Source: a virus. Taken from it: a DNA stretch of 53,502 nt. The stretch spans positions 1 to 53,502 of the IMG/VR virus record IMGVR_UViG_3300029811_000124; one strand, 5' to 3'. The position numbers were made by a program, and so were the translations under genes. Below, piece by piece: positions 3,718 through 51,087 of the stretch. Within the stretch, counting starts at the first letter, position 1; every line of letters begins with the position of its first letter. The notes below the pieces were generated by a model. It ran no database searches. It saw only the letters and a list, made by a program, of their open reading frames with translations, and had not been told where the DNA came from.

Positions 3718-3727
3718 TTTAACCTCC

Positions 3728-11888: not shown

Positions 11889-12218
11889 TCACTTCCAAAT
11901 ATGTCCAACATATTTAAATTTAGTTACAGCTTTAAGCCAATTTTTAAATTCAAAAAAATGTAAATCTTTATAATAAGCTTTTATATATCCAGCATTAAGT
12001 TCAACATCCAAAAGAACACCCCAAACTCTATCATCTATTTCATAAACTTCTCCATTAATATAATCTCCACTTTTATCACTTCTAATCGCCACTGGATAAT
12101 GACCGGCATCATATAATATATATCCTGGTATATTTGTTTCATAAAGGAATTTAGAATTTCCTAATAATCTATGATTATAATGATTCTTTTTCAGAGATCC
12201 GTAGATGAACAATTTCAT
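11889..12218 (-). CDS. Gamma-glutamylcyclotransferase-like (AIG2/GGCT) protein
   Basis: MKLFIYGSLKKNHYNHRLL matches the YGSLxxGxxNHxxL substrate loop of the GGCT/AIG2 fold, and DYINGEVYEIDD plus VLLDVELN match its second half; the usual catalytic Glu would be the Glu of the latter. Family members act on gamma-glutamyl amides and are reported beside amidoligases in phage and bacterial peptide-tagging operons. It overlaps the SbcD-like gene by 44 bases, an odd position between the SbcC and SbcD genes. Confidence 0.75.
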   Translation of the reverse strand: MKLFIYGSLKKNHYNHRLLGNSKFLYETNIPGYILYDAGHYPVAIRSDKSGDYINGEVYEIDDRVWGVLLDVELNAGYIKAYYKDLHFFEFKNWLKAVTKFKYVGHIWK

Positions 12219-13907: not shown

Positions 13908-13972
13908 ATTATTACCTCCTTAAAATTTTTTATTATGCAAATTTGGCCTCTTTCTATTTACTTTTAATTTAG

Positions 13973-20881: not shown

Positions 20882-20889
20882 ATTTTTAA

Positions 20890-31174: not shown

Positions 31175-31179
31175 TTTTC

Positions 31180-31410
31180 TCACTCTTTTAATTTTCTACA
31201 CAAATCTGTATATGCTTCCATTGGAGTATTACCTTTACCTATAAAATAACACTCACTTTCAATTTCCCAGAAATCATCACATGTTATATCATCAGAATTT
31301 ATAGCATCAGGAATATTATTAAATTCTATTTGCCACGCAGTCCATTTCCCACCAGAATAAGAACCACAATATCTATCATGAACTATAGTGCAAGGATATA
31401 TTTTTTCCAT
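31180..31410 (-). CDS. Small protein, 76 aa
   Basis: Three cysteines and KWTAWQIEFNN, ending PMEAYTDLCRKLKE, a pattern common in small phage proteins. Located between the PrimPol-helicase and an OB-like protein. Function unknown. Confidence 0.6.
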   Translation of the reverse strand: MEKIYPCTIVHDRYCGSYSGGKWTAWQIEFNNIPDAINSDDITCDDFWEIESECYFIGKGNTPMEAYTDLCRKLKE

Positions 31411-37951: not shown

Positions 37952-38191
37952 TTATTCTTTTATTATTATTTTATTATTAGGATTTCCACTCCCAATTTTT
38001 TTCAACTTTAATTCGTCACCATATCCATAACATACACCATTTATATAACCTGGACATCCATAGTTTTCATTACAACAATAACACTTTTCAATTGGACAAC
38101 ATTTAATTTCTTTTATAACAAATCTTATTTTTCTCACAAAAGGAAGAGTTTCTACCATATCTCCAATCTTTAGTTTTTTTAGTTTCTTCAT
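37952..38191 (-). CDS. Small KOW-like protein with zinc site and shared tail (CPGYINGVCYG)
   Basis: Opens LKIGDMVETLPF, the first strand of a KOW/SH3-like barrel. Cysteine cluster CCPIEKCYCC then CPGYINGVCYG, probably a zinc site. It ends GSGNPNNKIIIKE, the tail shared by the family. Strong AAGGAAAAA site. First (downstream-most) member of the array. The role is unknown. Confidence 0.75.
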   Translation of the reverse strand: MKKLKKLKIGDMVETLPFVRKIRFVIKEIKCCPIEKCYCCNENYGCPGYINGVCYGYGDELKLKKIGSGNPNNKIIIKE

Positions 38192-38208
38192 TTTTTCCTT
38201 ATATATTT

Positions 38209-38466
38209 TTATACTTCTAATACTATATTGGAATTTATACTTTTCTCTCCAATCTTTGTTAAACTAAAACCTGGAGTATATCCAAAACACTTGCCATTTA
38301 TATGACCCGGACAAATACTTATATCATATCCATCTGTACATCTTTCATTATGAGCTAAACAATCACACTTTGTTGTTGACTGTATAAGAAATTTACATCC
38401 AATCTTGTTCAAATTATAGTGGTTTTTGTTAATCTCAACAAAATCTCCAATCTTAAATTTACTCAT
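38209..38466 (-). CDS. Small KOW-like protein with zinc site and divergent shared tail (CPGHINGKCFG)
   Basis: FKIGDFVEINKNHYN barrel opening, cysteines CDCLAHNERC and CPGHINGKCFG, and the most divergent tail, EKSINSNIVLEV. It keeps the hydrophobic run after a single Asn, suggesting relaxed or altered tail recognition. Eight-base overlap with the next gene. Confidence 0.7.
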   Translation of the reverse strand: MSKFKIGDFVEINKNHYNLNKIGCKFLIQSTTKCDCLAHNERCTDGYDISICPGHINGKCFGYTPGFSLTKIGEKSINSNIVLEV

Positions 38467-38701
38467 ATGTTTCTTTTACAATTATATTATTATTAGGGTT
38501 AGATATTCCAATTTTTTTCAAATGATAAACATTCCCCCTTCCAAAACACCTATCATTTACATAACCAGGACAAATATAACTTTTACCATAAGCACGTAAA
38601 CATTCTTCCCTATTTCTACAATCTGAAATTGTTTTTATAATAAATTTATATTTACTAACTCCAAAATTATCTATTACTACATCTCCCACTTTAAATTTCA
38701 C
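38459..38701 (-). CDS. Small KOW-like protein with zinc site and shared tail (CPGYVNDRCFG)
   Basis: I set the start at GTG 38701: GGAG lies eight bases upstream and the GTG overlaps the integrase stop (GTGA), giving the family opening MKFKVGDVVIDNF. CPGYVNDRCFG and the earlier CRNREEC make the zinc-like site. Tail: SNPNNNIIVKETYE, three to four residues longer than most. Confidence 0.7.
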   Translation of the reverse strand: MKFKVGDVVIDNFGVSKYKFIIKTISDCRNREECLRAYGKSYICPGYVNDRCFGRGNVYHLKKIGISNPNNNIIVKETYE

Positions 38702-39534
38702 TTTATTTTCTCCCAATATCTATCTTTAGCTTCATCTATTGTTACATCATAATATATTAAAGTTGATTGAATATTTTTATGCCCCAATAGTTTTTGAGCA
38801 ACTCTAATATTTAATCCTTTTCTAGCTAACAATCTCCCAAATCCGTGCCTCAAAATATGTAGAGTTAATCTTTTTCTGTTGGGAACAAAATCCTTTAAAT
38901 CATTTATTAAATATGCCAATTGTCCAATAGTTATATTAAAGGCGTTGGTTATTTCTGGATAAGTATTAAAATATAAATCAACATTTCTCTTTACTTTTTC
39001 AGTAAAAGGAACTTCTCTCTCCATTCTATTTTTAATCTTACCTTTAACATATACTGTTAATCTATCTAAATCAATATTCTCTCTTTTTAAATTAATAAAT
39101 TCTTGCTTTCTCAGTCCTGTAAAAAATAAAAAATATAATATTGCTCTCAACTTTATTGGGTCTATAAAATAACAAAAACTCATTCCCATAGATACTATTT
39201 CATCTAACTCTTCCTCTGTAATGTAGGAATGAATCTTTTTTGTTTCTTTCAACATTTTAATTTTATAGATATATTTTAATAATTCTTCATTACAGCTACC
39301 CTCTCTTATTAAAAATTTATAAAAACATCTTATAGCTTTGATATCATTATTTATAGTATTATTTTGCCATCCTTTGTTTTTTAAATATATAATATATTCC
39401 ATATAGTTTTCAAATGTCAAATTAATATAATCTATACCTTTCTCACCACAGAATTTTAAAAAACTTCTAATCTTAATATAATAGGTATAATGATAATCAA
39501 CTATTTTTAAATAGTCTTCAAATTTTTTTAACAT
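38698..39534 (-). CDS. Tyrosine recombinase (XerC/D-like integrase)
   Basis: Full catalytic set: R142 in FTGLRKQEF, K about 164-168, H226/R229/H230 in LHILRHGFGR, H252 in LLGHKNIQ and Y261/Y262 in TLIYYDV. An N-terminal SAM-like core-binding domain is present. 278 residues. It sits inside the paralog array; it could resolve phage genome multimers or act on repeats. No att site can be seen. Confidence 0.92.
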   Translation of the reverse strand: MLKKFEDYLKIVDYHYTYYIKIRSFLKFCGEKGIDYINLTFENYMEYIIYLKNKGWQNNTINNDIKAIRCFYKFLIREGSCNEELLKYIYKIKMLKETKKIHSYITEEELDEIVSMGMSFCYFIDPIKLRAILYFLFFTGLRKQEFINLKRENIDLDRLTVYVKGKIKNRMEREVPFTEKVKRNVDLYFNTYPEITNAFNITIGQLAYLINDLKDFVPNRKRLTLHILRHGFGRLLARKGLNIRVAQKLLGHKNIQSTLIYYDVTIDEAKDRYWEKIK

Positions 39535-39537
39535 AAT

Positions 39538-39810
39538 TTATAATGCCCTCACTACTATTTTATTATTGGGATTTGTTTCGCCAATTATTTTTAGATTGTT
39601 ATAAGTTTCACCTCCCCCCGGATATTCACACAATACCCAATAGTCGTTACATCCTCCACCATTAACTTTGTCTTCTTTTTTCACACAACAACCATTTAAA
39701 TGATTTCGTTTACAATTACCTTTTATACCATTTATACATTTCACTATTCCTTTTGAGGAGTAATTAAAAGATATATAATCTCCTACTTTTAAATCTCTTG
39801 TAGTTATCAT
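39538..39810 (-). CDS. Small KOW-like protein with shared tail (TNPNNKIVVRAL)
   Basis: LKVGDYISFNYSSKGIVKCI opens the barrel; CCVKKEDK and GGCNDYW may bind metal. The tail reads ETNPNNKIVVRAL: GTA GTG AGG codons preserve hydrophobic-hydrophobic-basic where other members have ATA ATT AAA, evidence for protein-level constraint. Confidence 0.75.
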   Translation of the reverse strand: MITTRDLKVGDYISFNYSSKGIVKCINGIKGNCKRNHLNGCCVKKEDKVNGGGCNDYWVLCEYPGGGETYNNLKIIGETNPNNKIVVRAL

Positions 39811-39820
39811 ATTATTCCTT

Positions 39821-40057
39821 TTATTCCTTAATTATTATATTGTTATTAGGATTTATAGAATCTATTTTATATATTATTCTTCTACCTTTATCATCAAATT
39901 CATTATAATTGGTATTTACAGAATTGTCAAAATGAATTTCATAAACTGTACCTTTGTTGGTCCCAAAAGAATTAAAAATAACTCCTTGAAAATCTCTAAG
40001 ATTTCTCTCTTTATCTTTATTAGTATTCCAAAAAACTCTATCTCCTACTTTCAACAT
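39821..40057 (-). CDS. Small KOW-like protein with shared tail (INPNNNIIIKE)
   Basis: LKVGDRVFWNTNKDKERN opening, FQGVIFNSFGTNKGTVYEI middle; no cysteines. Tail SINPNNNIIIKE. Behind TAGGGGAAT. Confidence 0.75.
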   Translation of the reverse strand: MLKVGDRVFWNTNKDKERNLRDFQGVIFNSFGTNKGTVYEIHFDNSVNTNYNEFDDKGRRIIYKIDSINPNNNIIIKE

Positions 40058-40076
40058 ATTCCCCTATTTTTCATAT

Positions 40077-40358
40077 TTACATCTTTATTATTATATTATT
40101 ATTCGGATTAGATATTCCAGTTAATTCCAAATCGCCTTCTATATAACCATTTGTTATCCTTTCATCCCATTCATCCCATTTAACTCTATATTTAAAAAGA
40201 CTGTCATTACGAACTTCAATAATTCTTCCTACTGTCTTACCACAGATACCTCCCCATAGTGGATTATATTTTGAATCAGAAAAACGTCCACTTATATATT
40301 TAACTTTATCTCCAATTTTAAAACATCTCTTTGAATCTTTCTCTAAAAAACTTGGCAT
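40077..40358 (-). CDS. Small KOW-like protein with shared tail (SNPNNNIIIKM)
   Basis: A 12-residue leader (MPSFLEKDSKRC) precedes FKIGDKVKYISG, so this member is longer at the N-terminus. VGRIIEVRNDSLFKYRVKW is a classic KOW hairpin. Tail ISNPNNNIIIKM. Its start overlaps the ATP-grasp C-terminus by 41 bases, so the two are probably co-translated. Confidence 0.75.
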   Translation of the reverse strand: MPSFLEKDSKRCFKIGDKVKYISGRFSDSKYNPLWGGICGKTVGRIIEVRNDSLFKYRVKWDEWDERITNGYIEGDLELTGISNPNNNIIIKM

Positions 40359-41040
40359 ATAACTTCCTCCTTCTTCTATTCAGTCTTGGTGCACTATTAA
40401 CTTCTAATATATAAAATTTTCTATCTAAACCTAACATAATATCTACCGCTCCAAAATCATAGTTTAGTGCTTTAATAGCTTCAATCCCTAATTTTTTGAG
40501 AGTTTCGTTATGTTCTCCATCATAATCCACTTGTCCCCATCCTCTATCTCTTGACCAAATATGAGGATGATTGGAACTATCTTCAAATTTAAACTTTGTA
40601 GAAATACCAATTACCTCGTCTCCACAAACATGAACTCTAAATTCAGTTTCTTTAGGTATGTATTCCACAAAATAATGTCTTTTATTCACCCTTTTTTTCC
40701 TTCTTAGCCAACTTACTCTATTTCTAATATAAATAGCCTCTTTCCCTTTACAATGAAAATATTTTCTTGCAATCACAGGATAGCTATATGTTCTACTTCT
40801 ATTCCAATCAATTAAAGAAACATTTGGAGCATTTAACCCAGCTTCTTTAAATTTTATGATTTGAGTATATTTATTATTAATAAGTTTAGCATTTAAATTG
40901 GCTTTATTTCTTACATCTGTTCTACCATAATTTACTAAAAAATTAACATCTTCCGGTATAACATATCCCCCTTCACAATCCTTTAAATGAAAAGCCAAAT
41001 TAACTGCTGTTTCTCCTTTTCTTGTTCCTACTATGTACAT
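40318..41040 (-). CDS. ATP-grasp ligase (phage COOH-NH2 ligase type)
   Basis: ATP-grasp landmarks: YPVIARKYFHCKG (lysine of the first ATP strand), HYFVEYIPKETEFRVHVCG (the E-x-R segment), FGAVDIMLG and FYILEVNSAPRL (metal Glu/Asn). 240 residues. Relatives such as RimK join an amine or amino acid to a carboxylate using ATP; RimK extends the C-terminus of ribosomal protein S6. Here the substrate is unknown. Surrounded by small proteins with a common C-terminal tail. GGAGGTATGA site. Confidence 0.85.
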   Translation of the reverse strand: MYIVGTRKGETAVNLAFHLKDCEGGYVIPEDVNFLVNYGRTDVRNKANLNAKLINNKYTQIIKFKEAGLNAPNVSLIDWNRSRTYSYPVIARKYFHCKGKEAIYIRNRVSWLRRKKRVNKRHYFVEYIPKETEFRVHVCGDEVIGISTKFKFEDSSNHPHIWSRDRGWGQVDYDGEHNETLKKLGIEAIKALNYDFGAVDIMLGLDRKFYILEVNSAPRLNRRRRKLYAKFFRERFKEMF

Positions 41041-41057
41041 TCATACCTCCCTTTTTT

Positions 41058-41309
41058 TTATAACTCTAATAGTATATCACTATTTGGATTACCTCTAAAT
41101 ATCTTTAACCAATTTCCTCCATCATTTGCCAATGCCCAAGTATTATTCCATCCTGAACCTCTTTGACCATCTTCTCTTTCTACAGAAAAATAGCCTCTCT
41201 CTTTATTTTTTCTTACCACTTTTCCTTTAACGTGAAGTTCGGAGAGAGATAAAAATACTATTTCATCTCCTACTTTTAATTTTCTAATTATATCTATTTC
41301 AGATCTCAC
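41058..41309 (-). CDS. Small KOW-like protein with shared tail variant (GNPNSDILLEL)
   Basis: GTG start with GGAGTTAGAAA; overlaps the RuvB-like stop. LKVGDEIVFLSLSELHVKGKVV is a KOW opening. Tail RGNPNSDILLEL, with Glu in place of Lys and Leu for Ile. Confidence 0.7.
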   Translation of the reverse strand: MRSEIDIIRKLKVGDEIVFLSLSELHVKGKVVRKNKERGYFSVEREDGQRGSGWNNTWALANDGGNWLKIFRGNPNSDILLEL

Positions 41310-42264
41310 TTTCTAACTCCTCTATTGTCAAAAGACCTTTTACGGTTATACGTCTACCTCTAGCTGTTCTCGAAATTAAATTTTCTCCCAAAAGATATGG
41401 CTCTATACAATAGAGATAGTTTTCTGTAGAAGTATTTAAGTAACTTGCTAAACCCTGAAGTCCAACAGTTTTCTCTTGAGCAACATACTTTAAGATTTTT
41501 AAATCTTTATTAGTATAACCATCTTTAATTATATCAAAACTATTAATTACTTCTTTAATGTCTCCTCTAAAGTATATAGTTGCTTCTAATAATCTTAACA
41601 AAGTTCTTGGAGTTCCTCTACAATTTTTAGATATTATTTTATATATCTCCGGATGTAATCCATCGAAAGGAAACATCATTTTTCTATACTGTTTACATAT
41701 TTTAGTCAAATCTTCCAAATCATAGTTTTCTAATTCAATAATAATTTTAAACCTATCATAAAAAGGTCTTCTGTCTTTTAAAATTTCTCCCAATTCAGTA
41801 GTAGCTCCCATTAATGTAAAAGGCTCAATACTTTCCCCTTCAAAATAAAAATCTTCCATTATAGTATATAATTTCTCTACTTCATCCCTTCCAATTGAAT
41901 GAATTTCATCTAAGAACAAAATCCCTCCATTTACCCTTCTTACTGATTCTATAAATTTTTCAAAATTTTTCATTTCACTAGCTATATTTTCCACCAAAGA
42001 AACTTCAAGTTCATTGGCAATTATTTTAGCTAAAGTTGTTTTACCCATTCCTGGATTTCCGTGAATAAGAGTATGAGGAAAAACCAATTTTCTTTCAATA
42101 ATAGCTCCAATATAATTATCGAAAATTTTCTTAGCCCTCTTTTGACCAATATATTCATCAAAAGTCTTAGGTCTAAATAAACTAGGTTTGGTAGTTATTT
42201 TGTTTTCCAGATTTATTTTGTCTTCATCTAGAAAATCAAATAACTTTTTAACTTTATTAAACAT
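41299..42264 (-). CDS. RuvB-like AAA+ ATPase
   Basis: RPKTFDEYIGQKRAKKIF, Walker A GNPGMGKTT, Walker B GGILFLDEIHSI, sensor GATTE, and a winged-helix end with ISRTARGRRIT, very like RuvB RTPRGRxxT. About 321 residues. RuvB drives Holliday-junction branch migration; a phage homolog without RuvA may act with another partner. Start at ATG 42264, after the previous stop; the frame reads further upstream. Confidence 0.85.
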   Translation of the reverse strand: MFNKVKKLFDFLDEDKINLENKITTKPSLFRPKTFDEYIGQKRAKKIFDNYIGAIIERKLVFPHTLIHGNPGMGKTTLAKIIANELEVSLVENIASEMKNFEKFIESVRRVNGGILFLDEIHSIGRDEVEKLYTIMEDFYFEGESIEPFTLMGATTELGEILKDRRPFYDRFKIIIELENYDLEDLTKICKQYRKMMFPFDGLHPEIYKIISKNCRGTPRTLLRLLEATIYFRGDIKEVINSFDIIKDGYTNKDLKILKYVAQEKTVGLQGLASYLNTSTENYLYCIEPYLLGENLISRTARGRRITVKGLLTIEELESEI

Positions 42265-42293
42265 TTTCCTACTTCTTCTCCTTTTTTTACAGT

Positions 42294-43316
42294 TTAATAA
42301 TTTGAATAAGTAAGTAAACAATCTGGACATAAAGGAAACTCATTATATTTTTTAACCAATTTTGAAATCATAAATTCTTCATTACAAGCACCACAATAAT
42401 CAGTTTCCAATTTTAGAAAACCTCTTCTAACTTTTTGTCTACATTTTCTACATAGAAAAAATCTCTTTTCCTTTTCATTCTGAATAGGTCTTACATTTTT
42501 ATAAGAATAACAATTCTCACATTCACCATAATATAAATCATCATCTCCTTTACCAACTTTAGAATATAACCCCTTTACTTTTTCTCTTTTATCTTTTTTA
42601 TCTTTTTTCTCCTCAACTTTCGTTTCTTGATTTCCTTTCAATCTCGAATTTCGAGAATTTTCTAATAATTTTGTTCGACTTCCCTCATACCTATACTTAT
42701 TAAATCCACAATAAAGAACTCTTGTTTCATAACTTCTATTACTATAATAAATTTCTCCACTATCTACTTTTTCTTTTACAAACTCTCCTAGAAACAATAA
42801 TGAACCATCTTTATTCAAAAAAGTAAGTTTGTTATAACTCCCTATCATTTCTACGATTAATTTCTGGAGGACGTCATTTTTATAAATATTTTTTCTCACC
42901 ATTTTATCACTTAATATTGTCATAATAAAATTTTGAGTATCACTTAAATCTCCCATTTTGCTGTTGAAACCATACATTACTCCATTGTGTGCTACTGCTA
43001 AATCACAGTTCATACTAACTTTCCTAATTACCTTTTCATCTTTTGTCAAAGGAAAAGGATGTCTATTCCCTTCATCTACTAATCCACATGTTGCATTTCT
43101 AAAATGAACAATTAAACTATCTTCTTTTTCAATATGCTTTCTCAACCAGAAAATTAAATGTTCTACATTAACAAAGTCTTTTTTAATTATAACTTTATTA
43201 GTTTCTTTCTTCCAATAACAAATTCCAGCCCCATCACTGTTACCAGAATAACCATTTCTCAAATGTTCGTCATTCGGTAAACTAACACCTTTAGCTTTAG
43301 CAACAATTAAACACAT
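42294..43316 (-). CDS. Class II glutamine amidotransferase-like Ntn hydrolase with zinc ribbons
   Basis: Begins MCLIVAKAKG; after Met removal Cys2 would be the N-terminal nucleophile. SGNSDGAGICYW, HFRNATCGLVDEGNRHPF and LAVAHNGVMYGF match class II amidotransferase (GATase II) motifs. The last ~80 residues hold zinc ribbons (CENC, CRKC, CGAC, CPDC). Such domains hydrolyse or transfer gamma-glutamyl amides. It lies directly downstream of the amidoligase gene. GGAGGG site. Confidence 0.82.
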   Translation of the reverse strand: MCLIVAKAKGVSLPNDEHLRNGYSGNSDGAGICYWKKETNKVIIKKDFVNVEHLIFWLRKHIEKEDSLIVHFRNATCGLVDEGNRHPFPLTKDEKVIRKVSMNCDLAVAHNGVMYGFNSKMGDLSDTQNFIMTILSDKMVRKNIYKNDVLQKLIVEMIGSYNKLTFLNKDGSLLFLGEFVKEKVDSGEIYYSNRSYETRVLYCGFNKYRYEGSRTKLLENSRNSRLKGNQETKVEEKKDKKDKREKVKGLYSKVGKGDDDLYYGECENCYSYKNVRPIQNEKEKRFFLCRKCRQKVRRGFLKLETDYCGACNEEFMISKLVKKYNEFPLCPDCLLTYSNY

Positions 43317-43357
43317 AAACCCTCCTTAATTAATATTAATTAAACTAACTTTATTTT

Positions 43358-44785
43358 CTACAATGCAGATTTTTTAAAATAACCTACCATATGACCATAT
43401 CTATGTTGTTCTCCCGCCCATTTTTTGAAACCAATCCAAGATTTAGCTTTTAGTAAATAAACAGCAGAAACATCCTTTATAAAATGTGATATTGCATCAC
43501 AATATTGTAAAGTAGCTAAAAATCTATCAATATTTAAAGTTCCTCTAAATATTCTTAATTCAATAGTTGGCTTACCAGTTTCAATGTTTAAACAAATATG
43601 TCTTCCACCTTGAGATTGATTTTTATTAAAATATTTATCCTTCGAAAAATTCTCACTTGCACAAAACTCATTTCCAGTAGATCCTCTTTTTGAAAAACTA
43701 TATATCTTTTCGTAATTAACAGAGTGAAATATCCTCATTTTTTTAATATCTTTAGGAGTGAAAAAACTCTTGGATAAATGTATATGTAATCCACATTTTC
43801 CTCCCCAGTAAGATACAAAACTATTTTCTTTTAGCCATTTCAAAATATATTTGAATCTCATATTTTTATGAGCGTGTTGCAAACTAAAAGGGTGAGTTAC
43901 AATTTCAAATCCTATTTTGTGACCATTATTATCTCTCAAACTACCATCTTCTTTAAAATAAAAATCACTATAAAGTTTTTCCTGAGAAAGAAAATCTTTT
44001 AGATCCTCAGCCTTATTTTCACAATCTTTACATTGTACTTCTAATTCCAAGCCCATCATTAAATCATTATCCCATTTGTTTTTATTAAACTTTAATTTTC
44101 TGGGCATATATGTATAATTTTTAATTATTTTTTCCTCTTCAAAACAAGAAGTGCAATAATAAAGGTTTCTTCTTTCATTAAATCTTAAATTTCTTTTGAA
44201 AAATAAATCTCCACATTTACCACAAATATTGAAAGTAGATTCATAGCAACCTTTACAATAATCTTTATTTTCCAAACCTTTCTTTGTTTCTTTAAGTTTT
44301 TTCTCTTTATTACAAACTACACAAATAGTAAATTGTTTTTTATAACAATTATTACAGTAAAAATCTTTGGCAAGAGAAAACTTTCCTAAAGTTTTTAGCA
44401 AAAACTCTCCACAATGTTTACATATCTCGTAATTCTTAAAACAACTTCTACAAACCCTATAGCCTTGGATTTTTTTCATTAGAGAGCCTCTACATATTTC
44501 CCCACAATCTTCACAAGAAAAATGTTTAATGCCTCCAATAATTCTACCGTTCATATTTCTTTTTATTTTAGTAATACTGGACAAATATACCGGCCAGATA
44601 GGATTTTTTTCTCCAAAATCCTTGCTTAGTTTGTAGAATCTAATCATAGCTATTTTGTTGTTACTAGTTTCATCAACAGCAAACCCCACAATCCTGCCTT
44701 CAGATCCTTCACTACTATAAATATAACTCTTACCTCTTCCGTTAACCTTCACATAACTACCAATCCTCAAATCTGCACTAGCCAC
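43358..44785 (-). CDS. PF12224-type amidoligase with KOW-like and zinc-ribbon N-terminus
   Basis: Residues about 5-75 form a KOW-like barrel (LRIGSYVKVNGRGKS, GSEGRIVGFAVDE). Residues 91-214 hold eight CxxC pairs, about four zinc ribbons. The amidoligase domain is 244-460: GLELEVQCKD, KEDGSLR, GFEIVTHPF, GLHIHLSKS and TIELRIFRG. This glutamine-synthetase-like family joins carboxyl to amine groups, activating the acid with ATP, and occurs in phages and peptide-tagging operons. GTG start with AGGAGGTGTAAG. Confidence 0.82.
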   Translation of the reverse strand: MASADLRIGSYVKVNGRGKSYIYSSEGSEGRIVGFAVDETSNNKIAMIRFYKLSKDFGEKNPIWPVYLSSITKIKRNMNGRIIGGIKHFSCEDCGEICRGSLMKKIQGYRVCRSCFKNYEICKHCGEFLLKTLGKFSLAKDFYCNNCYKKQFTICVVCNKEKKLKETKKGLENKDYCKGCYESTFNICGKCGDLFFKRNLRFNERRNLYYCTSCFEEEKIIKNYTYMPRKLKFNKNKWDNDLMMGLELEVQCKDCENKAEDLKDFLSQEKLYSDFYFKEDGSLRDNNGHKIGFEIVTHPFSLQHAHKNMRFKYILKWLKENSFVSYWGGKCGLHIHLSKSFFTPKDIKKMRIFHSVNYEKIYSFSKRGSTGNEFCASENFSKDKYFNKNQSQGGRHICLNIETGKPTIELRIFRGTLNIDRFLATLQYCDAISHFIKDVSAVYLLKAKSWIGFKKWAGEQHRYGHMVGYFKKSAL

Positions 44786-44786
44786 C

Positions 44787-45023
44787 TTACACCTCCTTAA
44801 TTATTATATTAGAATTAGGGTTGGTTTTACCTAATACTATTAATTCTCTATCACAAAACCATAAATCCTTTTCATTTAACTCCTCATCTTTAAACTTCAC
44901 TTTCCAACAAAACCTATCCTCAATCCACTTGCATATAATACCAGTTTTTCCTATATAGTTAAAATAATCTTCATAATCCTGGGTTATATCTATAACCTTA
45001 ACTTTTTTACCTATCTCAACCAT
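44787..45023 (-). CDS. Small KOW-like protein with shared tail (TNPNSNIIIKEV)
   Basis: IGKKVKVIDITQDYEDYF then YIGKTGIICKWIEDRFCWKVKF, a KOW hairpin. Tail KTNPNSNIIIKEV. The start overlaps the stop of the next family member (45016), so the two are likely translated together. The ribosome site is weak. Confidence 0.72.
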   Translation of the reverse strand: MVEIGKKVKVIDITQDYEDYFNYIGKTGIICKWIEDRFCWKVKFKDEELNEKDLWFCDRELIVLGKTNPNSNIIIKEV

Positions 45024-45270
45024 ATTTAACTATTATCCCCGAATTAGGACATCCAACAGATTTCATAAATTTTTTGTCAATCCACCTACAATAACCGTTC
45101 TTCCCTGAGCCGAGACAATCGTGACCACTTCTAACTTTTTCAACAAATTCTACTCCATAATAATCTTTACCAAAATTAGAGACACATATTACCTTGCCTC
45201 TTAATCCATTAAGTTTAAAAGTAGGATAATTTCTATGGTAACAATTAACTTCTATTTTTTTACCTATCAC
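45016..45270 (-). CDS. Small KOW-like protein with shared tail variant (CPNSGIIVKYG)
   Basis: Probable GTG start. IGKKIEVNCYHRN, LRGKVICVSNFGKDYYGVEF and CRWIDKKFMKSVGCPNSGIIVKYG. The tail has CPNSG in place of NPNNN, shared with the gene at 45481. The starts and stops of 44787, 45016 and 45267 interlock by 4-8 bases. Confidence 0.65.
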   Translation of the reverse strand: MIGKKIEVNCYHRNYPTFKLNGLRGKVICVSNFGKDYYGVEFVEKVRSGHDCLGSGKNGYCRWIDKKFMKSVGCPNSGIIVKYG

Positions 45271-45491
45271 AATAATATATCATTATTAGGGTTATCTTCC
45301 ATTATTTCTATATCTTTTAATGACATCCAACCAAAACCAAATGAATCGATTTTCACCTTTTTAACATTATATGACCAATATGCCCATATTTTCTTACCTT
45401 CTACCTTTACTATTCTACCATATCTCCAGATATCACGGCAAGGATCGAGATATCTAATAATAGATCCAATTTTTGCCTCTCTATTCTTCAT
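45267..45491 (-). CDS. Small KOW-like protein with truncated shared tail (DNPNNDILL)
   Basis: AKIGSIIRYLDPCRDIWRYG then RIVKVEGKKIWAYWSYNVKK. Ends EDNPNNDILL without the final Lys, the shortest tail in the family. Overlaps both neighbours in the family. Confidence 0.68.
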   Translation of the reverse strand: MKNREAKIGSIIRYLDPCRDIWRYGRIVKVEGKKIWAYWSYNVKKVKIDSFGFGWMSLKDIEIMEDNPNNDILL

Positions 45492-45690
45492 ATTTAACTA
45501 TTATCCCTGAATTGGGACATCCTGCTTTTTCAAAATTTGACTCACAAAACCAATGAGGATATTCTTTTAATTTAATAGCATCAATTCCACTTACTATTTT
45601 AACCTCTTCAATCGTTCCAACATCTCCAATTTTTATAGGAGTACAATCGCAGACTATCCTTTTAACCCTATCTCCAACTTTAAGTTTCAT
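45481..45690 (-). CDS. Small KOW-like protein with shared tail variant (CPNSGIIVKYEE)
   Basis: ATG 45690 chosen (MKLKVGDRVKRIVCD) over TTG further upstream. GDVGTIEEVKIVSGIDAIKL is the KOW hairpin. Tail GCPNSGIIVKYEE, nearly identical to the 45016 member, so a recent duplication is likely. Confidence 0.7.
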   Translation of the reverse strand: MKLKVGDRVKRIVCDCTPIKIGDVGTIEEVKIVSGIDAIKLKEYPHWFCESNFEKAGCPNSGIIVKYEE

Positions 45691-45695
45691 TATTT

Positions 45696-45929
45696 TCAAA
45701 GTTTAATTATTATATTGTTATTGGGATTAGATGTTCCTACATATTTAAATCTTTTATTTTTCATAGAATAAATTTTTTTAGTTTTAATACTTTTTACACA
45801 ATATAACCCTGTAGAATTGGCTCCGTAATTCTTAAATCTTTTAAGAATAACAATATCTCCCATAAAAGAATGAGGGGAGCCCAAACTTACAACTTTTAGC
45901 ACATCTCCAATTTCTATTTTATCGCTCAT
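45696..45929 (-). CDS. Small KOW-like protein with shared tail (SNPNNNIIIKL)
   Basis: ATG 45929 gives MSDKIEIGDVLKVVSLG; a longer start at 45953 lacks a ribosome site. MGDIVILKRFKNYGANSTGLY is the KOW part. Tail TSNPNNNIIIKL. Upstream lies copy 2 of the dispersed repeat. Confidence 0.72.
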   Translation of the reverse strand: MSDKIEIGDVLKVVSLGSPHSFMGDIVILKRFKNYGANSTGLYCVKSIKTKKIYSMKNKRFKYVGTSNPNNNIIIKL

Positions 45930-45982
45930 AAATGCGTTTCCCTGCGTTTTCATATTAAGGCATATTAGTACACACCTTTAAC

Positions 45983-46034
45983 ACTAAAATCGATTCTAGA
46001 CCTATCCTCGTGTTATTAAACACTATTCTGGTAA
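45983..46034. repeat. Dispersed inverted repeat, copy 2
   Basis: Reverse complement of copy 1: block B at 45983-46012 (30/30 identical) and block A at 46016-46034 (19/19), here separated by only three bases. The pair is 39 kb apart in inverted orientation. The gap 45930-46040 contains no gene. Confidence 0.85.
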
Positions 46035-46040
46035 GGGGTC

Positions 46041-46316
46041 TTAATCATCCCACCCTTTTACCACTATATCTGGACAATTTACATTACCTACCTTTTTTAA
46101 CGAATAAACAATATGACCATTAGGATCGAAAGTATTTAATCCAAAACACATACCATTTATTTTATCTTCACATCCCAAATTTCCACAAGGTCCGATTATA
46201 CAAGTAGTTATTGTTTCAATTTTAAAAGGAGAACTTCCCCCATATTGAGATATTTCCTCTTTTGGGAAATTTTCAGGGAAATCTACTTTTACCATATCTC
46301 CAATTTTAAATTCCAT
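46041..46316 (-). CDS. Small KOW-like protein with zinc site and shared tail variant (NCPDIVVKGWDD)
   Basis: FKIGDMVKVDFPENFPK opening, cysteines CIIGPCGNLGCEDKINGMCFG similar to the zinc members at 37.9-38.7 kb. Tail VNCPDIVVKGWDD, missing the NPNN but keeping hydrophobic-hydrophobic-Val-Lys. Confidence 0.65.
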   Translation of the reverse strand: MEFKIGDMVKVDFPENFPKEEISQYGGSSPFKIETITTCIIGPCGNLGCEDKINGMCFGLNTFDPNGHIVYSLKKVGNVNCPDIVVKGWDD

Positions 46317-46317
46317 A

Positions 46318-46464
46318 TTACCAATCCTTCCCTAGTTGAAAATTAATTCTCAAGTTACAACTCTTACCCATTTTATAATAGCTTATTCTTATTCTCCACC
46401 ATAACAAATCAAAAAATACATATTTAGTTCTTTTTAACTGTAAAACTCCTTTTTTAATACTCAT
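46318..46464 (-). CDS. Small basic protein, 48 aa
   Basis: ATG 46464 follows GGAGTCGGAAT. MSIKKGVLQLKRTKYVFFDL then WWRIRISYYKMGKSCNLRI, basic and aromatic. Not family-like. Function unknown. Confidence 0.5.
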   Translation of the reverse strand: MSIKKGVLQLKRTKYVFFDLLWWRIRISYYKMGKSCNLRINFQLGKDW

Positions 46465-46730
46465 ATTCCGACTCCTATTAAATTTGGAAATGACAATTAA
46501 GCATATTGGAAAAATAACCAAAATAAATGTTTACAAAGCGACTCCTTGGCATATAATATAAGTGTAGCTTAAAAGAGGTAAGTTATTAGTACCAGTCTTG
46601 GTTTTATATTTCTATATTTTCCACTCTTTTTTAAACATAGGTCAGGATTGTCAATAAAGAAATCCTTAACTCCTTTATACTCTACATTTTATACTAATAG
46701 GGATTGAACACTATATAGACAACTTTACTA
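46465..46730. other. 266-base gene-free gap with possible RNA structure
   Basis: No open frame longer than about 25 codons on either strand looks real. On the plus strand AAGTGTAG (near 46558-46565) can pair with CTACATTT (about 46682-46689), enclosing ACCA/TGGT and AGGATT/AATCCT hairpins. The support is weak. The region may hold a promoter for the genes downstream of 46464. Confidence 0.35.
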
Positions 46731-47294
46731 TTATTTCTTTGTCTCCTCTTCTTCTAACCTTCTAGCTTCATTTAAAATATCAATCTTATTCTGTTTCAAA
46801 ACAAGACCACCAATAAAATTATCGGTTATCTGACTACCAAGATGTTTTTGTACTAATAACGCATTAGCTGTTTTTACATAAGTATCACTAATTACTTTTT
46901 TCATTTCATTTTCTCCTGTTTTATTTACCAATCTTAAATTCTTAAATTCGACTCGTTGATCACAGAGTTTTCCCTTTTTATTTCCTCTACAATTTGTACC
47001 ATTTACGTCTAACACTATAAAAGTTTCACCAGCGTTCCAATAACTACCATCAGCTTTATTCTTCAATACTTCTACTTCATCTCCAACTTTAAACTTATAT
47101 TTACTCACCTCCTCTTTTTCTACTGTACCTAATAGAATAAAAGATTTAGAACTATGATTGCCACCACCTGGAAATTCTTTTAATATTAAAGTTCCAAATT
47201 TTACATCAGTAATTGTTCCAACATCTCCCACTTTCATTCCATTATGATCCCCCATAACCCTTTTTACAATATTACCAACCTTAAACTTACACAT
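46731..47294 (-). CDS. Two-domain KOW-like protein without the shared tail
   Basis: Two barrel-like units: FKVGNIVKRVMGDHNGMKVG plus GDVGTITDVKFGTLILKEFP, and FKVGDEVEVLKNKADGSYWN plus GETFIVLDVNGTNCRG. A helical C-terminus follows (residues 130-187). It has an internal SKSFILLGTVEKEE segment but no NPNN tail. GGAGGTGTA site. Probably from a fusion of two family members. Confidence 0.75.
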   Translation of the reverse strand: MCKFKVGNIVKRVMGDHNGMKVGDVGTITDVKFGTLILKEFPGGGNHSSKSFILLGTVEKEEVSKYKFKVGDEVEVLKNKADGSYWNAGETFIVLDVNGTNCRGNKKGKLCDQRVEFKNLRLVNKTGENEMKKVISDTYVKTANALLVQKHLGSQITDNFIGGLVLKQNKIDILNEARRLEEEETKK

Positions 47295-47620
47295 TACACC
47301 TCCTCCGATTCTTTTAGTTTTAATAATAAATCTTTAACTTCTGCTCCAAATGTTTTATTTAACCATTTTAAATATATTTTTAATAATCCTCTTTTAACTA
47401 TAAATTTGTACGCATATGTATGTAGCATATAATGTAAACATCCTTTAATTTTAACCTTATTTTTATAAGTTCCATCTTTACTTCCACTAAGATGATGTTT
47501 TTCAAACTTACTTATCCATATCATATTAACTATCTCTTTAAAGTCTTTAGACTTTTTAGAAGATATTTTACCTTCTTTATTTAAAACATCAATCCTATTT
47601 AATAATGTTTTTAATTTCAT
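47294..47620 (-). CDS. Basic helical protein, 108 aa
   Basis: LKTLLNRIDVLNKEGKIS, then HHLSGSKDGTYKNKVKIKG and a hydrophobic-aromatic helix. Interlocks with both neighbours. No family recognised. Confidence 0.6.
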   Translation of the reverse strand: MKLKTLLNRIDVLNKEGKISSKKSKDFKEIVNMIWISKFEKHHLSGSKDGTYKNKVKIKGCLHYMLHTYAYKFIVKRGLLKIYLKWLNKTFGAEVKDLLLKLKESEEV

Positions 47621-47838
47621 TCTTCCTCTTCAGTCCATTCATAGTGAGAACATTCTAAAACTTTATGGTTACTATAAACACTTGTTTTATTATTTGTAAT
47701 TCTTTCCGTTCCATATATTTCAAATAATTCAGGTATTCTACACCTAATAACCTTCTCTTCTTTTTCAAATATACCATAACCATATTCTTTACTTCTCCTT
47801 TCCTCTTCTAATATTTCACCAAAACTTTTGTAATACAT
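47617..47838 (-). CDS. Small acidic protein, 73 aa
   Basis: MYYKSFGEILEEERRSKEYG ... YSNHKVLECSHYEWTEEEE. First gene after a putative promoter, behind TAGGAGTTTTTA. Function unknown. Confidence 0.6.
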   Translation of the reverse strand: MYYKSFGEILEEERRSKEYGYGIFEKEEKVIRCRIPELFEIYGTERITNNKTSVYSNHKVLECSHYEWTEEEE

Positions 47839-47873
47839 TAAAAACTCCTATTTTGGTTTTACCATATTGACAT

Positions 47874-47902
47874 ATTATACAATTCGGATTATCCTCTAAC
47901 AA
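47874..47902 (-). promoter_or_regulatory. Putative sigma-70-type promoter
   Basis: TTGTTA (47902-47897) and a perfect TATAAT (47879-47874) are separated by 17 bases, reading toward the gene at 47617-47838. Confidence 0.6.
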
Positions 47903-47917
47903 AATAATTATAAATAC

Positions 47918-47945
47918 AATTAAGGGAGAATTAACTCCCTTAATT
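47918..47945 (-). terminator. Terminator-like hairpin after the ubiquitin-like gene
   Basis: AATTAAGGGAG (11 bp) pairs perfectly with CTCCCTTAATT around a six-base loop, seven bases after the ubiquitin-like gene stop. The trailing T-run is interrupted. With the promoter it marks an operon boundary. Confidence 0.65.
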
Positions 47946-47951
47946 TTAAAA

Positions 47952-48179
47952 CTATCCTCCCTGTACAGCAGTTACTACTGTAATCAGATCTCCTTTCTTT
48001 AACATATAAGTTTTATTAACCACTTTACCGTTCACTCTAATTGCGGAATTATATGTTAAATCTTTCTTTTTCAGTAACTCATCCAGAGAAATGGGTTTAG
48101 ATAGTTTAATGTTTTTAGCTTGTTCTGCTAACTTAGCTAAAATCACAACTATACTTTTGGATGCTACACGTCTAGCCAC
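47952..48179 (-). CDS. Ubiquitin-like beta-grasp protein ending in Gly-Gly
   Basis: 75 residues from GTG 48179 (GGAGG eight bases upstream). After a basic start, SKSIVVILAKLAEQ, the second half NSAIRVNGKVVNKTYMLKKG, then DLITVVTAVQGG follows the ThiS/MoaD pattern (VNG, GD, terminal GG). The exposed GG is what E1 enzymes adenylate for sulfur transfer or conjugation. Its partner genes lie upstream in the same run. It is a bit basic for plain ThiS. Confidence 0.85.
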   Translation of the reverse strand: MARRVASKSIVVILAKLAEQAKNIKLSKPISLDELLKKKDLTYNSAIRVNGKVVNKTYMLKKGDLITVVTAVQGG

Positions 48180-48210
48180 ACTGATCACCTCCTTTTTTGT
48201 TAGATTTTTA

Positions 48211-48975
48211 TCACTTTACTATTCCATATGATAAATTTTTAACTTCTCCTCTTTTATAACTTTGTTCTACTATTATTACATTATTATTTCCCAATGAAAT
48301 AATATATGCTTCTTTAAAACCTCTACATAATTGTCTTAAAGATGGTCCTCTATCATATTCAGGTTCACCGTCAAATTTACCTATTCTTAATATTCCACAA
48401 GGTATTAATTTTTCTTTTATTAGAGTTACCATACCTTCACTCATTGTAGAAGTGGAAATTGCAACCATTCTATGGCAATTATCTCCTGCTCCTCTTTTAA
48501 GTCTAGTTATTTTTCTAATAATATTTTTCTTATCTTTTCCTAACATATAACAATAAGGATAAGCTTCATTATTTCTATGGTTATTCCAAAATTTAACTCT
48601 TAATTTACATATCTGATTATATATTTCTTTAGATATTAATACATCAGTATCGGGTTTTTTAATTTTCTTTTTTTGTTTTAATTTCTTTTTTGGAGAGAAT
48701 CTATTTATTTTTTCTAAACCTTTCACTGTTGTTATTATTGTTCTATTCCTACAATCTATTTCACAACTTACTAAACAATAAATATGTCCACGATGATTTA
48801 TTTTTTTGATTAATATTCCTTCTCTTCCTGTTCTGACAAAATTGTAAGCATACCATTTTGCTACTTCGGGATGTTTTTCTTCTATTTTTTTAATTTTATT
48901 CAGAAACCACTCTCCTATTACAGTTCTAATTTCAGAAGTATCAACGATTTTTACTTTATCTCCAAGTTTAATCAT
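48211..48975 (-). CDS. KOW-like plus degenerate JAB/MPN domain protein
   Basis: The first ~85 residues look KOW-like (MIKLGDKVKIVDTSE; GREGILIKKINHRGHIYCLV). After a Lys-rich linker, 110-245 follows the JAB layout: NNEAYPYCYMLGKD (E137), HRMVAISTSTMSEGMV, then CGILRIGKFDGEPEYDRGPS and AYIISLG. Where JAMM enzymes have H-x-H and D, this has R197-I-G199 and R214, so it is probably inactive. It may pair with the active JAMM protein as MPN heterodimers do. Assignment is inferred from motif alignment by eye. Confidence 0.55.
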   Translation of the reverse strand: MIKLGDKVKIVDTSEIRTVIGEWFLNKIKKIEEKHPEVAKWYAYNFVRTGREGILIKKINHRGHIYCLVSCEIDCRNRTIITTVKGLEKINRFSPKKKLKQKKKIKKPDTDVLISKEIYNQICKLRVKFWNNHRNNEAYPYCYMLGKDKKNIIRKITRLKRGAGDNCHRMVAISTSTMSEGMVTLIKEKLIPCGILRIGKFDGEPEYDRGPSLRQLCRGFKEAYIISLGNNNVIIVEQSYKRGEVKNLSYGIVK

Positions 48976-48985
48976 ATTACTCCTT

Positions 48986-49657
48986 TTATTTTGTATCCAT
49001 ATAAATCATATTAGTCAACCCAAATATCAATTCTTTAGGGAAGTTTCTTTCCTTCTTAACTATACTCTTTACTGCTCTACATATTAAACTTGAAATCATC
49101 ATTACACAGTAAATAATAGACCTCTCTGAACAAGGTAAATTCACAGGTTTTACTTCAAAAGTTTTTCCATAGAATTTTATTAACTTTCTATCTTTGGATT
49201 TTATTATGAAGATATGAGCCAATTCTCCCCCCATTCTTCCATCAATAAAATGTTTTGTTTTAGATTGTTTTAAGAATTGATTCCAAACTACCTTTCTAGA
49301 CTCTAAAGAATCTGTACAAGTTATCACCATTTCGCTTAACTTTTCTTTAGTGTAAAACTTTTTGTATATCTTTACCTTAGTGTCGGAGAAATCCTCTATT
49401 ATATCTTTCAACGCTTCAACTTTGAAACTGTCTAAATCTTTCTTCCTATAGAACTGGTTGGGTAAATTGTGTTCACTAACTCCATCTTCATCAAAGATTT
49501 CAATAGAACCAACTCCCATTTTAGCCAAACTTAAAGCAGTAAAACTACCAGTGGCTCCAGCTCCAATTATACTAACCTTTAAAGAAGATAATTTCCTCGA
49601 GTCAACAATCCCAGTTTGTCTATCGTATCTAATTCTTCCGTTTCTAATCCTTCGCAT
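48986..49657 (-). CDS. E1/ThiF/HesA-like adenylating enzyme
   Basis: RYDRQ arginine finger at 10-14, nucleotide loop IIGAGATGSFTALSLAKMG (30-48), D56-E-D58, HNLPNQFY (63-70), K79 and TCTDSLESRKVVWNQF (113-128) match E1-type adenylation domains. C176 (NLPCSE) is the candidate catalytic or thioester Cys. It would activate the GG-ending protein. 223 residues, a minimal E1 without extra domains. Its start overlaps the JAMM gene by 79 bases. Confidence 0.9.
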   Translation of the reverse strand: MRRIRNGRIRYDRQTGIVDSRKLSSLKVSIIGAGATGSFTALSLAKMGVGSIEIFDEDGVSEHNLPNQFYRKKDLDSFKVEALKDIIEDFSDTKVKIYKKFYTKEKLSEMVITCTDSLESRKVVWNQFLKQSKTKHFIDGRMGGELAHIFIIKSKDRKLIKFYGKTFEVKPVNLPCSERSIIYCVMMISSLICRAVKSIVKKERNFPKELIFGLTNMIYMDTK

Positions 49658-50223
49658 ATCTCTACCCTCCTATTAAATCTTTCATATTCAACTTTTCTTT
49701 TTACTTCTCTATAACAATTTTCTTTTAATTTTCCTCTAATTGGTAAAACCTTTACTGGAATATCAGCTTGTTGACCTTTGTCATCAATTCTTCCTATCAT
49801 ATCTACATTTTTATTTATACATATAGACAATAAATAAGAATTTTCTGAATGTCTAGTAATATTATCTTCATCGGTTCCTGACCAATGAACTCCAAAGTCA
49901 TTATGAGAGTGCCACCATAGTTTCCATTTTCCTATATTTTCTCCTCTTCTAATTAACCTACCTAAAAATAAATGTAGAGTTTCTTCATCTAAAGATGTAT
50001 GAATTGATGTACACTTTTGTTTGAATATTTTAACATTAGTAACAATAATTCTATTACCTATCTTTTTTATCTTACCAAATCCTGAAATTTCTCCTCTAGC
50101 TTTTTGTGTATAATGAACCATTTTAGAATAAGCTAAATTTGATAATTCTAATTTTATATTTTTACCCCACCACTTCTCTAAAAGTAAATCTTCTGCTAAA
50201 TCCTCTTTAAAAAAATTCTTCAT
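49579..50223 (-). CDS. JAMM (JAB/Mov34) metallopeptidase
   Basis: Intact JAMM set: E45 (GEISGFG), H105-S-H107, S115, D118 with the canonical H-x-H-x10-D spacing (WHSHNDFGVHWSGTDED). Such enzymes remove ubiquitin-like proteins or trim residues after GG. C-terminal ~60 residues are helical and charged and overlap the E1 start. GGAGGTATAAT site. Confidence 0.92.
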   Translation of the reverse strand: MKNFFKEDLAEDLLLEKWWGKNIKLELSNLAYSKMVHYTQKARGEISGFGKIKKIGNRIIVTNVKIFKQKCTSIHTSLDEETLHLFLGRLIRRGENIGKWKLWWHSHNDFGVHWSGTDEDNITRHSENSYLLSICINKNVDMIGRIDDKGQQADIPVKVLPIRGKLKENCYREVKRKVEYERFNRRVEICEGLETEELDTIDKLGLLTRGNYLL

Positions 50224-50235
50224 ATTATACCTCCT

Positions 50236-50439
50236 TCATATTTTAATTATTATATTATTATTCGGATTAGATATTCCTCTTAGTTTTAATTTATAATAAG
50301 TTTCTCCTAAAGAGTAACATGAGCCATTCCTGTCATTTTCCCAAGAATTATCGCTAACTACTGTTCCTGTAGAACCTTTACGTGCAAGCCCTGCGATTTG
50401 TTCTACAACTTTTATTTTATCACCTATTTTAAATTTCAT
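50236..50439 (-). CDS. Small KOW-like protein with shared tail (SNPNNNIIIKI)
   Basis: FKIGDKIKVVEQIAGLAR then KGSTGTVVSDNSWENDRNG and the tail ISNPNNNIIIKI. It lies directly upstream (12 bases) of the JAMM start, inside the run of the ubiquitin-like module. No cysteines other than one. Confidence 0.78.
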   Translation of the reverse strand: MKFKIGDKIKVVEQIAGLARKGSTGTVVSDNSWENDRNGSCYSLGETYYKLKLRGISNPNNNIIIKI

Positions 50440-50445
50440 ATTGTT

Positions 50446-51087
50446 TTATATTAAAAAATCATTTACAATAAAATCAGTATCTCTTAATAGCACTCCTTTT
50501 TTTGCCCAGTTTTCTTTTAACTCTTTTAGTGGTAAATTAGGTAGTTCTTTTATTGCATCTTCTACCACTATAATTCTATAATTTCTTTTCTCCAATCCCA
50601 ATACAGCTAAGTTTACACACACATTTGTCGCAACTCCATAAACTATTACTATAGTTGGAGATAAGAATTCTAATATATTAGAAGTATGTTTATTTCCTTC
50701 AAATACATCAAATTTATCCTTTTGTATAATAATGTTTCTTGCTCTTTCTAATACAGAAAAGTTTATTTTTTCATTATTCCAACCACATATATAGTAGTTA
50801 TCACCATAATTACAATTAGGACAAGTTTCTGGTATAAATTCTGCACCATCAGTTCCTGCCATACAGTGAGGAGGGAATGTAGTTTTAAAATCAGGTTTAT
50901 CAGATATTTCTTCTGTATCTTTTCCGTGATAATCTGCCGTATTTACAACTATAATATTAAATTTCTTAGCGGCGTTGGTTAGTTTTTGTAAATTCTTTTT
51001 TATTAACTCTGCTCCTTCTACATATAACGCACCATCTTTGTTTATGAAATCTTTCTGTGAATCGACATTCCAAAATATTACTTTCAT
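50446..51087 (-). CDS. pncA: Nicotinamidase/isochorismatase-like hydrolase
   Basis: VDSQKDFINKDGALYVEGA gives the catalytic Asp, HCMAGTDGAEFIPE and TADYHGKD supply metal ligands (D..H..H), and VYGVATNVCVNLAVLGL holds the catalytic Cys. The order (D, K, C) and length (213) fit PncA, which deamidates nicotinamide to nicotinate. Isochorismatase-fold relatives are possible. Part of an NAD-related set with 52521-53502. GGAGGTAATA site. Confidence 0.8.
   Translation of the reverse strand: MKVIFWNVDSQKDFINKDGALYVEGAELIKKNLQKLTNAAKKFNIIVVNTADYHGKDTEEISDKPDFKTTFPPHCMAGTDGAEFIPETCPNCNYGDNYYICGWNNEKINFSVLERARNIIIQKDKFDVFEGNKHTSNILEFLSPTIVIVYGVATNVCVNLAVLGLEKRNYRIIVVEDAIKELPNLPLKELKENWAKKGVLLRDTDFIVNDFLI

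Follow-up and report, generated by a model that had tools for sequence, protein, structure and literature searches.

A C-terminal tail shared by small proteins and a replication enzyme of an uncultured virus, a probable lineage-specific recognition tag

The IMG/VR virus record IMGVR_UViG_3300029811_000124, analyzed here over its full 53,502 nucleotides (nt; the window), is a piece of a larger virus genome in which 14 small proteins, encoded between 37.9 and 50.4 kb, and one primase-helicase end in variants of a single tail. In the small proteins, the consensus G-x-[ST]-N-P-N-[NS]-x-I-[IVL]-[IVL]-[K/R/E] lies within the last 12–16 residues. The tail is selected at the protein level, and we consider it fairly likely to be a portable, lineage-specific recognition tag, which most likely brings its carriers to one common partner. 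Arrays of small early phage proteins are largely unexplained, and our search of open-access papers found no description of such tails.

The minus strand encodes all main genes of the array region. The 14 open reading frames (ORFs) that a sequence-only reading of this DNA had singled out were all recovered at the positions it gave, and all of them end in the tail, which is degenerate in two (38209 and 46041; genes are designated here by their first coordinate). A 15th copy, beyond that list, ends the primase-helicase. In the following list of carriers, "KOW-like" denotes a weak, model-based resemblance, and counterparts are those of G005, a 17-kb contig collinear with the window from the amidoligase to the FEN1 nuclease.

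37952..38191, minus strand: small KOW-like protein with Cys motif CPGYINGVCYGY, tail GSGNPNNKIIIKE
38209..38466, minus strand: small KOW-like protein of the Cys type, degenerate tail GEKSINSNIVLEV (KSINSNIVLEV)
38459..38716, minus strand: small KOW-like protein of the Cys type, tail GISNPNNNIIVKETYE; the G005 counterpart (10867–11103) is also tailed
39538..39810, minus strand: small KOW-like protein, tail GETNPNNKIVVRAL
39821..40057, minus strand: small KOW-like protein, tail SINPNNNIIIKE
40077..40358, minus strand: small KOW-like protein, tail GISNPNNNIIIKM
41058..41309, minus strand: small KOW-like protein with RuvB and ATP-grasp on either side, tail RGNPNSDILLEL; the syntenic G005 protein ends in GTNPNNSIILSEEF
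44787..45023, minus strand: small KOW-like protein adjoining the amidoligase, tail GKTNPNSNIIIKEV; the syntenic G005 protein ends in GETNPNNNIVIREV
45016..45270, minus strand: small KOW-like protein, tail GCPNSGIIVKYG, of the CPNSGIIVK form
45267..45491, minus strand: small KOW-like protein, tail EDNPNNDILL
45481..45699, minus strand: small KOW-like protein, tail GCPNSGIIVKYEE, of the CPNSGIIVK form
45696..45953, minus strand: small KOW-like protein, tail GTSNPNNNIIIKL
46041..46316, minus strand: small KOW-like protein of the Cys type, divergent or degenerate tail GNVNCPDIVVKGWDD (NVNCPDIVVKGWDD)
50236..50439, minus strand: small KOW-like protein, tail GISNPNNNIIIKI
28301..31183, minus strand: Prim-Pol/DnaB-type primase-helicase with a LAGLIDADG intein and the C-terminal add-on EGTNPNNDIIVK, directly followed by the stop codon

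A strict regular expression for the tail matched 13 of the 45 window genes within their last 18 residues (shuffle mean 0.003) and none of them at internal positions, and 59 pairs of C-terminal 16-mers reached a similarity score of 32 or more, where the null gave 1.9 on average. The tail is not bound to the exact C-terminus, since 0–5 residues follow its core; its last position is K in 11, R in 1, and E in 2 of the 15 window tails, and is absent from the remaining one. Among the 14 small proteins, mean pairwise identity is 0.25 for the bodies (20% when shuffled) and 0.47 for the tails (25% when shuffled), tails being more similar than bodies in 80 of 91 pairs, and tail and body distances are uncorrelated (Mantel r −0.09, p 0.70). 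Codon differences at positions 1, 2, and 3 amount to 0.27, 0.10, and 0.37 among window tails and to 0.21, 0.09, and 0.44 between window and G005 tails. The second position is thus the least changed and the third the most in both comparisons, which bears out the protein-level constraint claimed from the sequence. The feature then held to be constrained, a hydrophobic-hydrophobic-basic ending, did not survive the comparison: the basic residue is mostly Gln in G005, where the K of the window tails is mostly replaced by Q, N, or S. The constrained feature is instead a turn and a hydrophobic strand, N-P-N-[NS]-x-I-[IVL]-[IVL].

Scanning the DNA of viral and genome contigs for the exact pattern NPN[NS][ND]I..K gave chance matches only; G005 was found with a looser pattern that included the upstream Gly. 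Single-protein searches for relatives returned none with the family B DNA polymerase (PolB) or the helicase and four with ribonucleotide reductase. Two relatives, G003 and G004, have replication genes in common with the window, and neither the array, the ATP-grasp gene, the amidoligase gene, nor the tail was found in them; the RuvB-integrase interval of G003 spans only about 480 nt. G005 has 11 tail carriers, with endings such as GETNPNNNIVIREV, GTRNPNSNIVIQEV, and GKVNPNNKIVIQE; three of these are zinc-ribbon-like and not KOW-like, and in two of the three an acidic linker precedes the tail. Three syntenic positions are tailed in both viruses, although the proteins are only 32–38% locally identical, and the first tail Ile is encoded by ATT or ATC in some G005 tails. 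One tagged KOW gene of G005 (3722–3943) has no in-frame start codon behind an A-run, possibly through an assembly error (indel) or slippage. Among 16 related records searched, the ATP-grasp and amidoligase genes, as well as real tails, were present only in G005, and single pattern matches in the others are taken as chance. Retention of the barrel with loss of the tail, an outcome envisaged in the sequence-only reading, is not what G005, the closest array-keeping relative, displays: it keeps the tail.

The fold of the small carriers appears weakly KOW/SH3-like. A Pfam search of the small tail proteins gave no family above cut-off, hence no curated KOW or SH3 model; their PHROG matches to KOW-like families are weak, as are the Foldseek matches of the modeled proteins to Spt5-KOW, SH3, and ribosomal KOW proteins, none with an E-value below 0.08. 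The AlphaFold model of 50236 (14-sequence alignment, pLDDT 69) contains five strands up to residue 55 and coil at residues 56–67; in the model of 38459, the last strand extends to residue 71, residues 76–85 are below pLDDT 50, and the tail lies beyond the barrel. Both models therefore end the barrel before the tail, in agreement with the idea that it is not simply a last barrel strand. The 40077 protein can be aligned with a Vibrio phage homolog through the last barrel strand, after which the two diverge, the homolog keeping the barrel without the tail. Barrel-less carriers, of which the sequence-only reading had mentioned one, do exist: the zinc-ribbon-like proteins of G005 and the primase-helicase, which is perhaps the protein originally meant. 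Ten homologs of the latter (36–51% identity) lack the tail and end in ELKRIDEL or its equivalent, where the window protein adds its extension.

The array is interspersed with genes of a putative peptide-ligase cassette, of the phiEco32/LUZ24 type that Iyer and colleagues reportedly described in 2009, comprising COOH-NH2 ligase, Amidoligase_2, class II glutamine amidotransferase (GATase), RimK-like ATP-grasp, and gamma-glutamyl cyclotransferase (GGACT). We know of no experiment on the substrate of the phage amidoligase/ATP-grasp cassette. The window members are as follows.

40318..41040, minus strand: RimK-like ATP-grasp ligase, candidate tail reader (PF08443, 5.7e-6), 68% identical in G005
42294..43316, minus strand: class II GATase domain with a Cys-rich segment (PF13230, 4.1e-5, just above cut-off)
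43358..44785, minus strand: Amidoligase_2 protein with an SH3-like N-terminal stretch (PF12224, 3.5e-7), 52% identical in G005
11889..12218, minus strand: AIG2-like GGACT, away from the cluster (PF06094, 1.6e-13)

Amidoligase_2, class II GATase, and RimK-like ATP-grasp thus occur together in the window, along with GGACT, which usually accompanies this cassette in LUZ24 and phiEco32; G005 has the amidoligase, GATase, and ATP-grasp plus a PF14395 COOH-NH2 ligase. The suggested co-occurrence of the tail with ATP-grasp and amidoligase genes consequently holds in both viruses. Because the ATP-grasp gene is embedded among tail-bearing genes in the two of them, encodes the best conserved cassette enzyme, and was not found in tail-less relatives, its product is a candidate partner of the tail. 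The cassette genes of LUZ24-like phages have been listed (PMC3890496).

Comparison phages were chosen by similarity of their ATP-grasp proteins, blind to tails, and several proved to have tails of their own. LEND ends 16 ORFs of Erwinia phage Pecta, LENE 17 ORFs of Citrobacter phage CVT22, LENK 11 and 9 ORFs of Klebsiella phages Klyazma and VR7901, respectively (LEND, LENE, and LENK being the Citrovirus tags), and LEEN 8 ORFs of Salinivibrio phage CW02 (Salinovirus), while no 4-mer was common to more than four shuffled C-termini. In Sinorhizobium phage phiM6, 14 KOW-like proteins bear [KR][IVA]DQEP[LM]EEEETL-like tails (one of them, 3596–3868, has DQEV), with an identity of 0.23 for bodies and 0.69 for tails. 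The Citrovirus tag is flush with the C-terminus, unlike that of the window, and its codons, TGGAGAA, in most cases place GGAG 5–9 nt ahead of the next start, as a Shine-Dalgarno sequence, a role that could imitate a signal at the protein level. Where no start adjoins downstream, however, the tails of Citrovirus and CW02 have lost GGAG and retained their residues (Pecta 8357 and 13030; Klyazma 7692; VR7901 8673 and 14044; CW02 10216), indicating that the Citrovirus tail is selected as protein too. In Citrovirus and Salinovirus, tail codons that double as the Shine-Dalgarno sequence of an overlapping next gene place one stretch under selection for both protein and translation initiation. Klyazma also has a gene annotated as a proteasome beta subunit (22948–23427) in the same early region as its tagged genes.

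Altogether, in this small sample, 8 of the 19 genomes that have the ATP-grasp cassette show shared tails (window, G005, Pecta, Klyazma, VR7901, CVT22, CW02, and phiM6), representing about three lineages, and none of 12 comparison genomes or fragments that lack it does, HMO-2011 included. The 11 cassette genomes in which none was found (LUZ24, phiEco32, KZY1-1938105, T5S1, 172P1, 1.293.O, QDWS535, K4, RIO-1, cr108_1, and APT65) are mostly poor in KOW-like starts, as counted with a loose pattern; 1.293.O and phiEco32 have 10–11. Fisher tests of tail versus cassette on interim counts gave 0.02–0.03, for genomes that lack independence; a count roughly collapsed by lineage did not reach significance, and the link is suggestive only. 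These data suggest that phages use recognition tags of their own, unrelated in sequence between lineages, to mark sets of small proteins. A lineage tag on 8–17 proteins per genome or fragment implies that carriers probably act via a common partner, and, as Citrovirus, CW02, and phiM6 phages have been isolated, the question is not tied to an uncultured virus.

In our proposal, the window tag pairs a turn, NPN[NS]x, with the short hydrophobic strand I-[IVL]-[IVL] behind it and serves as a recognition element at the C-terminal ends of one replication enzyme and a group of small early proteins. Most likely, a single partner would bind all of these carriers, probably by strand addition to one of its grooves or sheets, as the combination of turn and strand suggests. 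The tail is a candidate recognition element or substrate for the phage amidoligase/ATP-grasp cassette, although the identification of the RimK-like ATP-grasp/amidoligase/GATase cassette as the partner is clearly more tentative than that of the tail as a tag. Slightly more speculative still is a scenario in which cassette phages run their own tagging system, made of an array of small SH3 proteins resembling effectors and a lineage tag that the cassette would read to ligate, cross-link, or otherwise modify the carriers or to load them onto a target, at least three lineages having evolved different tags for the same purpose. Modification of the C-terminus would, from the position of the tags, be attractive for Citrovirus and less so for the window. 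On the other hand, several points weigh against our interpretation. Synonymous identity among window tails exceeds expectation (244 vs. 206, p about 0.01) and the first tail Ile is ATA in 15 of 15, which means that the tails share descent or were exchanged; part of their conservation may thus reflect recent spread. The fold models are only of moderate quality (pLDDT 68–69), and the single reader that we infer for the tag is a candidate only. Finally, the 11 tail-less genomes indicate that the cassette does not need the tail, and its co-occurrence with tagged genes of the same region can be linkage.

The main rival to the cassette as partner is a clamp- or replisome-type hub. The tail would then dock its carriers to a replication or transcription hub (sliding clamp, SSB, or RNA polymerase), which the cassette merely adjoins, and we regard this as a serious minority possibility. 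The helicase does carry the tag, and there are precedents: T4 gp33, gp55, DNA polymerase, and DNA ligase have a common linker-attached clamp-binding motif (PMC7892883), and the primase-helicase and SSB of LUZ24 a common acidic tip. However, the window PolB ends in a canonical clamp-binding QLSLF, unlike the tail, and G003 has a clamp, yet no tail was found in it. The tail might also be a functionless by-product of tandem duplication and 3′-end recombination between neighboring genes. Besides the synonymous excess and the invariant ATA, rare CCC/CCG proline codons recur, the tail DNAs of 45016 and 45481 are 94% identical over 34 nt, a tyrosine recombinase sits inside the cluster, and the helicase tail DNA is closest to that of 39538 (ACAAATCCCAA-AAT), which suggests capture by recombination. 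But exchange alone would not leave codon position 2 spared, as it is even between genomes whose amidoligases are 52% identical; moreover, syntenic tails persist, tails do not follow bodies, and other lineages arrived at this arrangement with tags of unrelated sequence. We therefore find a mere by-product improbable.

The remaining explanations are less probable again. Ubiquitin-like (Ubl), E1, and JAMM-motif genes adjoin the array (47.9–50.2 kb) and most window tails contain Lys, so that the tail could be a C-terminal degron or a lysine acceptor for the viral Ubl. We judge this quite improbable, as Lys is missing from 4 of 15 window tails, as most G005 tails have Gln, Asn, or Ser in its place, and as the distance to the carboxylate varies, unlike in ssrA-type degrons; the replacement of K by Q and the inconstant spacing from the stop led us to reject both the acceptor and the degron forms. 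A DNA or RNA element read through as protein (Shine-Dalgarno sequence of the next gene, promoter −10 box, or recombination site) seems very unlikely, even though GGAG precedes most of the next starts in Citrovirus and TATAAT occurs in 8 of 15 window tails (AATATAATA contains it). The protein pattern is kept in the seven tails that lost TATAAT, some G005 tails use ATT or ATC for the first Ile, and Citrovirus and CW02 tails without an adjacent start keep their residues; in the window, the Shine-Dalgarno sequence comes after the stop codon and never lies inside the tails. Promoter, Shine-Dalgarno, and recombination-site readings of the window tail DNA were rejected. Just as remote is the view of the tail as the last strand of the barrel fold: IIIK is strand-prone and directly follows the last predicted strand in KOW proteins, but both models end the barrel earlier, and the tail is also present on the helicase and, after acidic linkers, on G005 zinc-ribbon-like proteins.

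Several neighboring genes deserve mention. The tyrosine recombinase of the tagged array (38698–39534, minus strand) occupies the same position in G003 and G005. The Ubl module adjoining the array (47952–50223, minus strand) comprises a ThiS-like protein ending in VQGG (47952–48188), an E1/ThiF protein (48986–49657, minus strand) related to E1s of crAss-like and of Xanthomonas/Erwinia phages, and a protein (49579–50223, minus strand) with a perfect JAMM motif, HSHNDFGVHWSGTD, and a weak match to archaeal Rpn11. As a Ubl conjugation acceptor, the tail lacks a conserved Lys, which is present in 11 of 15 window copies. An isochorismatase-family hydrolase, possibly a nicotinamidase (50446–51087), and an NAD synthase (52521–53345), both on the minus strand, may form an NAD salvage pair. 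The LAGLIDADG intein of the primase-helicase is supported by a Pfam match and by the absence of the insert from homologs, and inteins are likely in two further minus-strand genes, encoding a metallophosphoesterase whose homologs align at its two ends only (24550–26082) and a radical-SAM-like protein (3728–6079).

Among known systems, the clamp-binding motif SCBM of T4 is one short linker-attached motif borne by several unrelated proteins, C-terminal in gp55, and directed to one hub (PMC7892883). The window tail resembles it as one motif on unrelated proteins of one phage. It differs in that the T4 motif is found on few replication and transcription proteins, with another consensus and a known hub, whereas the tags are lineage-specific, occur on 11–17 mostly small proteins, and would have an inferred hub. 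The window polymerase, a T4-like family B enzyme (18761–20881, minus strand), carries a separate clamp motif, its QLSLF end, and a FEN1-type nuclease of G004 has a PIP-like QPTLF; the tail consensus, with neither Gln nor aromatics, does not fit clamp-binding motifs (SCBM/PIP/CBM; QxxL/I-xxFF- or QL[SD]LF-like). In T7, gp2.5 and gp4 have acidic C-terminal tails, so that a replication enzyme and a small accessory protein have a tail in common, as in the window; the T7 tails are acidic and limited to two proteins, whereas NPNNNIIIK combines a neutral or basic charge with hydrophobicity and recurs throughout an array. Acidic tips as in T7 also end the LUZ24 primase-helicase (13453–15162, DDDTPI) and SSB (20375–20929, DDEDAPI). 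RimK glutamylates the C-terminus of ribosomal protein S6, and tubulin-tyrosine ligase (TTL) is an ATP-grasp ligase acting on protein C-terminal tails. The window ATP-grasp ligase belongs to this broad family, but the window tails have no conserved C-terminal Glu, and a fixed C-terminal acceptor of the RimK/TTL type is absent, as the window tails continue for 0–5 residues beyond the core and differ in their last residue. Nor does the tail resemble a graspetide precursor, whose core peptide has conserved Thr/Ser/Lys nucleophiles and Asp/Glu acceptors, since Gln takes the place of its Lys in G005 and none of its acid or hydroxyl residues is invariant. As for the phiEco32/LUZ24 cassette, the window and G005 carry members of it interspersed with tagged genes, whereas LUZ24 and phiEco32 had no shared tail in the same tests. 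If the cassette reads the tag, this would be a new kind of system; the tag alone would be a variant of shared docking peptides.

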